Below are positions 609-28,184 of a stretch of DNA of 33,707 nucleotides, piece by piece. The notes beneath the pieces are model-generated. The model was not told where the DNA came from. It searched no databases and was given only the letters and a program-made list of their open reading frames with translations. A program made the position numbers and the translations under genes. Every line of letters starts with the position of its first letter. The first letter of the stretch is position 1. The stretch is from Leptolyngbyaceae cyanobacterium SM1_4_3 (GTDB lineage Bacteria > Cyanobacteriota > Cyanobacteriia > Elainellales > Elainellaceae): positions 1-33,707 of the forward strand of contig JAAUTN010000032.1 of NCBI GenBank assembly GCA_012031415.1, read 5' to 3'.

Positions 609-700
609 GTGAGCGTCGTACTCTGGTAATGTAACGCTCACCAACTGTTCAAGGTAAAAATTGGAAAACCTCCAATTTGTGATAAGTGGTGAGCGGAGGA
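609..700 (+). promoter_or_regulatory. Structured mRNA leader with alternative hairpins over the RBS
   Basis: ACGCTCAC (634-641) pairs perfectly with GTGAGCGT (609-616). Almost the same segment, CGCTCACCA (635-643), pairs perfectly over 9 bases with TGGTGAGCG (687-695), whose last base is the first base of the Shine-Dalgarno GGAGGA (695-700). The two pairings exclude each other. A third hairpin, AAATTGGA (658-665) with TCCAATTT (671-678), sits between them. The layout resembles a translational switch or attenuator for the export operon. The complementarity is seen directly; regulation is inference. Confidence 0.4.
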
Positions 701-707
701 ATGGGCG

Positions 708-1565
708 TTGTTGGGATTGATCAAAGGACTAGTTCACAAAGCCAGCAAGATAAAGCGCTGGTTGCCAATCCGGGAGTCGGATTGGACTCAATTAAGTTTG
801 CTCAAGGCGTTGGTACAGCGAGACTTAGAGGCTCGCTACAAAGGGTCGATTCTGGGAAATGTCTGGCCGCTGTTAAACCAACTCTCCCAGCTTCTGATCT
901 ACACCTACGTTTTCTCAATTGTTTTACGGGTCAAGCTAACCCTCAACGGTTTGCCAGAAAACAATCTTACCTTTGGACTGTGGCTATTTGCCGGACTGCT
1001 ACCCTGGATTGCTTTTACGAGCGGGTTGGTTCCAGCGGCAGGTTCAGTCGTGGCACAAACCAATTTGGTCAAAAAAGTAGTATTTCCGCTAGCTTTATTG
1101 CCTTTGGTTCCAGTTCTTTCGGCATTTGTCGAGAGTACGTTGGGTTTGGTGGCGCTAATCGTGTTTGTCGCAGTAATTAGTCAGACAGTACACGCGACTC
1201 TATGGTTGTTGCCGCTGGTGTGGATGCCTCAATTGCTGCTAACCGCAGGGCTAGCCTACTTGACCGCAGGACTTACCGTTTTTCTCCGAGACATTCCCCA
1301 AACTTTAGGAATTGTTCTAAACCTGTGGTTTTACGTGACCCCAATTGTCTATCCGGCAGACATCATTCCTGAACGGTTCAGGAGCTTAGTGTTTTGGCTC
1401 AATCCGATGGCGGCGATCGCTGAAACCTATCGTGACCTCGTTCTGGTCGGGAGAGTTGCCCACTGGGGAGAATGGGGGCTTGCCACAGGAATATCTGTGG
1501 TCGCATTTACTGGTGGTTTGTGGGTATATGGGCGGCTGCGTCCAGCATTTGCCGATGTCCTTTAG
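708..1565 (+). CDS. wzm: Polysaccharide ABC exporter permease (Wzm/TagG-like)
   Basis: An integral inner-membrane protein of 285 residues with about six hydrophobic segments and the layout of the ABC-2 polysaccharide export permeases (Wzm, TagG, RfbA), which are usually 255-290 residues. The N-terminus is cytoplasmic and amphipathic, with RDLEARYKGSILGNVWPL as a typical family stretch before the first membrane segment. The C-terminal part has the family-like YVTPIVYPADIIP and LNPMAAIAETYRD stretches. The start is a TTG at 708: the frame is closed by a stop at 690-692, and GGAGGA at 695-700 lies 7 bases upstream. An ATG at 701 is in another frame. The adjacent Wzt-like ATPase forms its partner, and together they would flip a completed lipid-linked glycan across the inner membrane. 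Confidence 0.88.
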   Translation: MLGLIKGLVHKASKIKRWLPIRESDWTQLSLLKALVQRDLEARYKGSILGNVWPLLNQLSQLLIYTYVFSIVLRVKLTLNGLPENNLTFGLWLFAGLLPWIAFTSGLVPAAGSVVAQTNLVKKVVFPLALLPLVPVLSAFVESTLGLVALIVFVAVISQTVHATLWLLPLVWMPQLLLTAGLAYLTAGLTVFLRDIPQTLGIVLNLWFYVTPIVYPADIIPERFRSLVFWLNPMAAIAETYRDLVLVGRVAHWGEWGLATGISVVAFTGGLWVYGRLRPAFADVL

Positions 1566-1588: not shown

Positions 1589-2884
1589 ATGGATGAGATT
1601 GCGATTTCATTAAAGAACGTTTCAAAGTGCTTCAAGCGCTATGCTAAGCCAGCAGATCGCCTCAAGGAGATTTTACTGCCGAAAAAGAGTCATGCTCAGA
1701 TGTTTTGGGCGTTGCGCGATATTAGCTTGAATGTCGCCAGAGGTGAAGCTCTCGGAGTTATTGGTCAAAACGGCTCTGGCAAAAGTACGCTACTTCAAGT
1801 CATTGCTAAAACTCTAACTCCGACCGCAGGAGAAGTCTTTGTCAATGGGCGAGTTTCGGCTCTGCTAGAACTTGGGAGTGGTTTCAATCCAGAGTTTACA
1901 GGCAGGCAAAATGTATTTTTTAATGGACAAATTTTAGGACTTAGCCAAGAAGAAATTGCGACTAAGTTTAATGAAATAATCAAATTTGCCGAAATCGGAG
2001 ACTTTATAGAACAACCTGTAAAAACATATTCTAGTGGAATGTTTGTTAGGTTAGCTTTTGCTGTTGCAGTCAGTGTTAATCCTGATATTTTGATTGTTGA
2101 CGAGGCGCTAGCAGTTGGTGATATTTACTTTCAGCAGAAATGTTTTGAAAGAATCCAAGAACTTAAGCATCAAGGAACAACTCTTCTATTTGTTTCTCAC
2201 GACTCTACCGCAGTGTACAAACTCTGTGGTAGAGCGGTTTTAATGGAATCAGGAAAGGCCATACTGGATGCAAAGCCAAAACAAGTTATTGATTTATATG
2301 AGGCAAAACTTCTAAAGAGAAGAGATACGCACTCTGAATCTGTAGACATTCAGATGTTAGCTAAGCCTGACTCATCTGCTCAGGAAACAACCTCTTCTGA
2401 TGAGGTTTTAGAGGAAGTGATTATTCAGTCTTCGGAAGTTGTTGTTGAATTTGTAAAGCTTTTAGATGAGAATGGTCAGATTGTTGATTCAGTAATCAGT
2501 GAGCAAACTTTACAATTATCAATCGGTATACTGCTTCTCCAAAGTTTTGACGACCTCCATATTGGCTTTAAAGTTCGAGACAGAACTGGGGAAGTTATTT
2601 TTGAAACTAATACGTTTGCAATGAGGAAGAAGCTTGGCAAGGTCTATAGCGGAACTTCTTTGGAAGTAATTTTTGGATTTCATGTTCCCTTAAGCGAAGG
2701 CGAATACACAATCTCATTGGGTGTCGCTGATGGTGGATTTGGAGAGGGGCTATTTAGGCGATCGCTAGTATATGCTCACAACTCTGCTGCCTTTAATGTT
2801 CTAAGAAACAATGATTCCATTCACTGGTCAGGCATTGTAAATCTTAATCCTTCCATCTCGATCAATAGCTCTGCTTATGTTTGA
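1589..2884 (+). CDS. wzt: Polysaccharide ABC exporter ATPase with C-terminal glycan-binding domain (Wzt-like)
   Basis: The cytoplasmic ATPase partner of the preceding permease, 431 residues. The nucleotide-binding domain fills roughly residues 1-240: Walker A GQNGSGKST (59-67), a degenerate signature YSSGM (147-151), Walker B ILIVDEA (167-173) and the switch histidine in FVSHD (H204). Residues about 270-420 form a beta-rich extension like the Wzt C-terminal domain, which in E. coli O8/O9a and Raoultella O2a binds the modified non-reducing end of the glycan and so couples chain completion to export. Short TagH-type ATPases lack it. The presence of several methyltransferases downstream fits recognition of a methylated terminus. 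The stop overlaps the next start by 8 bases. Confidence 0.9.
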   Translation: MDEIAISLKNVSKCFKRYAKPADRLKEILLPKKSHAQMFWALRDISLNVARGEALGVIGQNGSGKSTLLQVIAKTLTPTAGEVFVNGRVSALLELGSGFNPEFTGRQNVFFNGQILGLSQEEIATKFNEIIKFAEIGDFIEQPVKTYSSGMFVRLAFAVAVSVNPDILIVDEALAVGDIYFQQKCFERIQELKHQGTTLLFVSHDSTAVYKLCGRAVLMESGKAILDAKPKQVIDLYEAKLLKRRDTHSESVDIQMLAKPDSSAQETTSSDEVLEEVIIQSSEVVVEFVKLLDENGQIVDSVISEQTLQLSIGILLLQSFDDLHIGFKVRDRTGEVIFETNTFAMRKKLGKVYSGTSLEVIFGFHVPLSEGEYTISLGVADGGFGEGLFRRSLVYAHNSAAFNVLRNNDSIHWSGIVNLNPSISINSSAYV

Positions 2885-28110: not shown

Positions 28111-28184
28111 TCGGGATGAAAGGATTTGAACCTTCGACCCCCTCGTCCCGAACGAGGTGCGCTACCAAGCTGCGCTACATCCCG
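28111..28184 (-). tRNA. trnP-CGG: tRNA-Pro (anticodon CGG)
   Basis: Read on the minus strand the sequence folds as a full cloverleaf. The acceptor CGGGATG (28184-28178) pairs with CATCCCG (28118-28112), with A at 28111 as the discriminator. The anticodon stem CCTCG/CGAGG encloses the loop TTCGGGA, giving anticodon CGG (plus-strand 28148-28150) for proline codon CCG. The T-loop is TTCAAAT. CCA is not encoded. C1-G72 is usual for bacterial tRNA-Pro. Confidence 0.95.

Follow-up and report, generated by a model that had tools for sequence, protein, structure and literature searches.

The leader of wzm in the DNA analysed here (the window, a stretch of 33,707 nt that is one contig of a 7.8 Mb genome, cyanobacterial by its relatives) contains two competing stems with one arm in common, both of which are conserved in a second species, and it shows strong, position-specific complementarity to the small RNA Yfr1, which is encoded in the same genome. 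On these computed features, wzm mRNA may be a Yfr1 target, and an antisense arm within the leader (635-643) may, in the present genus, compete for the target-like copies, a reading to which we give an even chance. All features below lie on the plus strand unless stated otherwise.

The gene wzm (708..1565), which starts with TTG, encodes the ABC-2 permease of a polysaccharide exporter (PF01061) and is followed by wzt (1589..2884), which encodes the ATPase (PF00005, ABC_tran, and PF14524, Wzt_C domain). According to a Pfam scan of the first 10 genes, one of which had no Pfam match, the two genes lead a series of methyltransferase and glycosyltransferase genes. A match to wzm at E<=1e-110 was found in 77 of 388 genomes of the class, the own genome included; at E<=1e-60, wzm of the present type was detected in only 2 of 36 genomes of the family, and was missing from a third genome of the same genus, of 83% completeness.

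Two competing stems and their conservation

The original prediction placed two alternative hairpins before wzm, in which CGCTCAC (635-641) pairs either with GTGAGCG (609-615) or, within a 9-bp helix, with the segment that runs into the Shine-Dalgarno (SD) sequence. The competing pairings are real. Letters and coordinates of the first pairing proved correct, and the helix, stem 1, is 8 bp long, one more than claimed, and joins GTGAGCGT (609-616) to ACGCTCAC (634-641). Stem 2 is present just as described and joins CGCTCACCA (635-643) to TGGTGAGCG (687-695) over 9 bp, the middle arm ACGCTCACCA (634-643) having 609-616 or 687-695 as its partner. The hairpin predicted between them (658-678) was also recovered, with an 8-bp stem formed by AAATTGGA (658-665) and TCCAATTT (671-678) around a 5-nt loop. 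Stem 2 is part of the minimum free energy (MFE) fold of 600-715 (-34.6 kcal/mol, z -2.86), and none of 200 shuffles was equally stable. When 541-707 was dinucleotide-shuffled 20,000 times, a 9-bp helix into the ribosome binding site (RBS) arose in 89 shuffles, but was accompanied by an upstream competitor of 7 bp or more in only 3, by helix criteria that were fixed after the sequence had been seen; the mutually exclusive helices are thus above chance.

Exactly one homologous leader was found, that of Cyanobacteria bacterium FACHB-471 (L080), whose wzm is 93% identical. Both pairings are conserved in it and its arms have been kept selectively: 0 of 43 arm bases changed, compared with 14 of the other 56 bases of 609-707 (Fisher p 1.5e-4), and the difference persists when the RBS part is left out (0/34 in the arms versus 10/37 in the rest, p 7.5e-4). 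Counted in 20-nt steps, the two leaders differ at 25/60 positions in 546-605 and at 6/60 in 606-665, and third codon positions of wzm differ at 84 of 285. In the hairpin 658-678 all four changed bases (667-670) lie in the loop and the stem is intact, which favours an RNA structure over a DNA site. As no arm base was substituted between the two sequences, they carry no covariation evidence for or against the stems. A covariance model of the fold (R1), searched in 79 relatives with Infernal's stricter filters, recovered only the window and FACHB-471; the eight other listed matches (E 0.03 to 1) were taken as chance, and no related fold was found outside the genus.

Further upstream, a conserved block (486-545, 7/60 positions different in FACHB-471) is probably the promoter region, although a consensus scan of its plus strand gave no sigma-70-like match. 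Homology to FACHB-471 ends at 427, so the region upstream has been rearranged in one of the two strains; 427-465 retains only the final codons of an upstream gene, of which FACHB-471 has an intact copy (L080, 1858-2760). The noncoding start of the contig carries two perfect 15-bp inverted repeats (192-255 and 368-400), and the stretch beside the second of them (400-431) recurs, in the manner of a dispersed repeat, on other contigs of the own genome and of G002. At the far side of the window, a tRNA gene (RF00005) occupies 28111-28184 on the minus strand.

Several other origins and functions of the leader were considered and rejected. A dispersed-repeat origin was dropped on the finding that a 201-nt query matches the own genome once. 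An insertion with target-site duplication between two GTGAGCG copies was discarded, no terminal inverted repeat being visible by eye. Of two possible leader peptides, one would be encoded by an open reading frame (ORF) of 8 codons (586-612), which lacks an ATG in FACHB-471, and the other by an ORF that begins with GTG at 609, ends at 627-629 in the window and continues in FACHB-471.

Accessibility of the Shine-Dalgarno sequence

Translational riboswitches sequester the SD sequence, and in them two exclusive helices share one arm. The wzm leader resembles them in having two exclusive helices with one arm in common, but differs in that its SD core is free, no conserved aptamer was found, and the fold is present in two species only. 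The original prediction had stem 2 run into the SD sequence GGAGGA as an on/off switch. Stem 2 does adjoin this sequence, but only G695 is paired, whereas the core GAGGA (696-700) and the 7 nt up to TTG708 lie outside the helix. Under several assumed 5' and 3' ends, forcing stem 2 gave a predicted probability of 0.79-0.92 in the window, and of 0.71-0.99 in FACHB-471, that GAGGA is unpaired; forcing stem 1 gave 0.65-0.71 and 0.50-0.87, respectively. The core is mostly unpaired and about equally open either way, and the notion of on/off occlusion is not supported. What stem 2 hides is the arm just upstream of the core, whose unpaired probability is 0.00 in the window, below 60/60 shuffles, and 0.21 in FACHB-471, a value matched or undercut by 15% of shuffles.

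A self-contained riboswitch, that is, a ligand- or protein-sensing translational switch in which stem 1 would open the RBS and stem 2 would close it, could account for exclusive stems that are above chance and conserved. It would also agree with the standby-site model of PMC3936740, calibrated on E. coli, which charges stem 2 a penalty of about 4.7 kcal/mol in the window and 6.3 in FACHB-471. However, with stem 1 formed, 679-700 can likewise be freed only at a cost of 5.6 kcal/mol in the window and 6.6 in FACHB-471; since these costs are similar to the penalty, the states hardly differ and neither can be called ON. As far as the text of PMC3936740 goes, the leader is like the structured standby sites described there in that a tall helix extends right up to the SD sequence (proximal length 0), an arrangement penalised by the model, and unlike them in having a second, mutually exclusive stem with which the RBS is still weakly paired. 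In Rfam, no family matched the leader at its gathering score, and up to E 5 the only match was Xist_exon4, at chance level (11.7 bits; gathering score 100). Together with the position of the SD core outside stem 2 and a fold confined to the window and its sister among 79 relatives, this makes a self-contained switch improbable. The metabolite form of it was rejected for want of an Rfam match, of an aptamer conserved beyond two species, there being a single homologue, and of a state that sequesters the SD core. A riboswitch general to wzm leaders is not supported either, given that only 2 of 36 family genomes have this wzm and that a GC-rich 9-bp helix into the RBS is confined to the two leaders of the genus among the filtered leaders described below.

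Temperature had been named as another possible trigger, but stem 2 is in the MFE fold of the window at 15, 25, 37, 45 and 55 C; the masking helix of the window is not predicted to melt in the physiological range as that of an RNA thermometer does, and in the same series the MFE fold of FACHB-471 switches to stem 1 at 55 C only. Depending on the ends taken, the window favours stem 2 over stem 1 by roughly 5 to 8 kcal/mol, whereas in FACHB-471 the two are within about 2 kcal/mol, either way. In equilibrium folds of the growing transcript, stem 1 is dominant up to about 690-693 in both species; at 695 the window goes to stem 2 and FACHB-471 alternates.

Complementarity of wzm leaders to Yfr1

Orthologue leaders were taken from 132 loci (>54% identity, at least 100 nt upstream, no N), of which 112 remained after removal of exact duplicates. 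Of these, 48 passed an RBS filter that required GAGG within the last 24 nt and an aligned start codon. The weak TTG start noted in the original prediction is present, but it is shared by 45 of these 48 filtered leaders and is therefore a family trait that is not particular to the window gene. At the RBS, many wzm leaders of cyanobacteria share an element of about GGTGTGTARGTAGTGAGYGAGGA-N8-TTG, which is complementary to the unpaired segment of Yfr1. A model of this element (R2), derived from an alignment (A3) of 23 of 29 non-redundant leaders, had its best match at wzm in 11/11 tested genomes outside the genus with an orthologue (E 2e-7 to 5e-4; 150 candidates scored per genome), which is partly so by construction because most searched genomes gave leaders to A3; the absence of other strong matches is informative. 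With the next match anywhere at E 0.0045, the element is uncommon before other genes, and this match (in G333) was dropped as lying within the coding frame of another polysaccharide region. In the present genus the copy is degenerate (R2 E 0.47 in the window and 1.3 in FACHB-471), and this local copy is the right arm of stem 2. The stems themselves appear to be a feature of the genus: CTCAC within 110 nt was found in 5/112 leaders, of which two belong to the genus, and other leaders lack the complementary arm. Among the 48 filtered leaders, a GC-rich 9-bp helix into the RBS occurs only in the two of the genus, a 9-bp case in L079 being all A-T, and the longest such helix of the 46 others is below its own shuffle mean in 33, ties with it in 2 and exceeds it in 11.

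Other types of wzm leader were also observed. In a Leptolyngbya/Nodosilinea group (L061, L063, L067, L070, L096, L099, L100 and L109), a conserved block near GGTATGGTGTCTGTGG...GGTGGCGATTGTCCTGA replaces the TTG element, and a third type, with variants of GATTGGAGTCATCAATTGTTG and without the GTGAG element, occurs in L085, L089 (a Pseudanabaena biceps contig), L094 and L117.

The sequence GTGAGCG, in two direct copies and one inverted (at 609, 635 and 689), might alternatively be a DNA operator with the RNA pairings as a by-product. The pattern GTGAGCG-N10..30-CGCTCAC occurs in 25/60 relatives and in several genomes outnumbers its reversed control, but several of its matches are longer terminator-type palindromes, and the hairpin 658-678 lacks GTGAGCG, yet has a conserved stem and a changed loop. 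Moreover, the family element takes its position from the start codon, with GAGG beginning 13 nt before it in 39/48 filtered leaders (12 nt in the window), and we consider an operator very improbable.

Yfr1 is found in nearly all cyanobacteria and is abundant, and its ultraconserved core is ACUCCUCACAC, as stated in the accessible text of PMC2190773. The wzm RBS element resembles the complement of this core. Yfr1 genes, which were first located by the core motif and then confirmed with Rfam (RF01116), are present in the own genome (L173, 57.9 bits) and in FACHB-471 (L185, 57.3 bits; gathering score 38), and their unpaired segment was paired with the leaders by RNAduplex. The strongest predicted site in the window lies at 594-614 (pairs 595-600 and 602-613, core complementarity 602-610), with a duplex energy of -27.0 kcal/mol that was reached by a fraction of 0.0003 of 3000 leader shuffles; at the same place in FACHB-471 the duplex has -25.0 kcal/mol (0.0007 of 3000 shuffles). 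Against shuffled Yfr1 segments the window site is modest (2.5% as strong), compared with 0.4% for FACHB-471. The Yfr1 11-mer alone gives a 9-bp match at 602-610 in both species, with one G-U pair in the window. The two sites (594-613) differ at 4 positions (3 substitutions and 1 gap), and in trials with 4 random substitutions an energy of -25 kcal/mol or better remained in 2.4% for the window site and in 0.6% for that of FACHB-471. For an 18-nt Yfr1 segment and 594-612, duplex energies were -25.1 (window) and -23.1 kcal/mol (FACHB-471); with opening costs of 6.9 and 6.1 kcal/mol for the mRNA and 1.0 for Yfr1, our own arithmetic gives a net of about -17 and -16 kcal/mol. A second, weaker predicted site lies over the RBS (685-702, -19.1 kcal/mol, about 10.9 kcal/mol to open).

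Among 24 genes of the window, wzm is the strongest for Yfr1, the runner-up reaching -15.7 kcal/mol. In samples of about 400 kb from each of three genomes, wzm also comes out at or close to the top: control genes that equalled or surpassed it in the 45 nt and 120 nt upstream numbered 0/205 and 0/205 in G280, 0/229 and 1/229 in G333, and 3/256 and 0/256 in G001, respectively, and the three G001 genes in the RBS-proximal 45 nt and the one G333 gene at 120 nt count against a special place of wzm as a Yfr1 target. Across the family, mean duplex energies in the last 45 nt were -12.8 kcal/mol for the 112 leaders, -19.0 for the 48 filtered ones, -12.6 for shuffles of these 48, and -7.7 for 165 control ORFs of the same loci. 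The complementarity also depends on position. When 108 of the 112 leaders (at least 200 nt upstream) were thinned to 81, their mean was -12.3 kcal/mol versus -9.3 for shuffled Yfr1, with 0/300 shuffles as strong; the gain over shuffled Yfr1 was 3.3 kcal/mol at -40..-1 and stayed within 0.5 in windows upstream of -41 and from +20 on, all windows with a gain lying between -60 and +39. Taken individually, 25/81 thinned leaders were significant at p<=0.05 (median p 0.18), and composition contributes to the match because the leaders are G/T-rich and Yfr1 is C/A-rich. The family-wide peak is at -40..-1; in the window, the site overlapping the RBS is the second best.

Exact matching to the Yfr1 11-mer in the last 45 nt gave a weak signal: matches of at least 7 nt occurred in 23/112 leaders, compared with 3.0% of control ORFs (5/165) and some 7.7% of shuffles. 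In many Nostocales the exact match is interrupted by the C in GAGCGAGG, but energy-based pairing of the longer segment fits both forms, the Nostocales form (GGTGTG + AGTGARC) and the Oscillatoriales form (GTGGGTGAGGA) matching different parts of the same Yfr1 segment.

Yfr1 as a candidate regulator of wzm

In Nostoc PCC 7120, Yfr1 targets include mraY (all4316), murC (alr5065) and amiC2 (alr0093), the predicted and tested targets are largely envelope and transport genes, and Yfr1 pairs in the initiation regions of envelope genes, according to the accessible text of PMC6974561. The same text describes mostly repression at the start site (10/11 tested) and one activation from a far-upstream site; the site of alr0093 is far upstream. 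Many wzm leaders are like these targets in their predicted complementarity, next to the start codon, to the conserved unpaired segment of Yfr1; wzm also has an envelope/transport function, and its duplex energies are in the same range as those of mraY, a validated target. Taken as the best over candidate in-frame starts, the latter were -19.6 to -26.6 kcal/mol in 7/8 genomes and only -13.3 kcal/mol in the own genome, where only a nearer start was found. The strong complementarity precedes an upstream mraY candidate start (mostly GTG) at L258-L260 and L262-L265, from several families, and these matches would extend the reported Nostoc target. The strongest site of the window is far upstream of the start, about 95-114 nt before it, and in this it is similar to that described for alr0093; it differs from the Nostoc targets reported there in this position and in overlapping a cis-antisense stem. 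In the accessible text of PMC6974561, wzm is not named among Yfr1 targets, and no publication joining Yfr1 to wzm in its title or the start of its abstract was found among the best-ranked literature matches.

In many lineages, Yfr1 would thus meet a complementary element on the RBS of wzm, and pairing there should block initiation. The leader of the present genus holds two Yfr1-target-like copies (594-614 and about 685-702), and the antisense arm between them (635-643) can pair with either copy, giving the two exclusive stems. Yfr1 bound to 594-614 in the cell would take the left arm of stem 1 (609-613), free the middle arm and drive the leader into stem 2, so that the choice of stem would shift with Yfr1 and translation would change, with repression and activation both possible. 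When 597-613 was blocked in folds of 541-750, the probability of stem 2 rose from 0.22 to 0.97 in FACHB-471 and was 0.94 before and after in the window. Since stem 2 is already at 0.94, equilibrium folding predicts no Yfr1-driven shift in the window; such a fold change would be one of equilibrium in FACHB-471 and at most kinetic in the window. In addition, the finding that stem choice barely alters SD accessibility counts against this explanation.

The dominance of stem 2 in the window from 15 to 55 C and at equilibrium would also fit a constitutive leader structure, which would serve mRNA stability or a fixed level of translation without switching and would leave only the RBS-proximal element regulatory. 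The RBS element is indeed kept in genomes without the stems. However, the arms of stem 1 are conserved though this stem is barely populated at equilibrium in the window, and a purely constitutive role seems rather unlikely. As regards the trigger, the data point to a small RNA rather than to a metabolite, a protein or temperature, and the hairpins may decide how Yfr1 acts on wzm. A more elaborate form of Yfr1 targeting, which we regard as doubtful, is a three-way competition between Yfr1 in trans and the cis-antisense arm, in which Yfr1, binding about 100 nt upstream, would toggle the fold beside the RBS; the leader would then contain two copies of a small-RNA target site and an internal mimic of the small RNA.

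Synechocystis mutants of slr0977, a wzm homologue, flocculate, as described in the accessible text of PMC3769361. If wzm is a general Yfr1 target, one constitutive small RNA would also set surface polysaccharide export, on which flocculation and adherence depend, and the genus-specific leader would show how a lineage absorbs a small-RNA interaction into its own mRNA.
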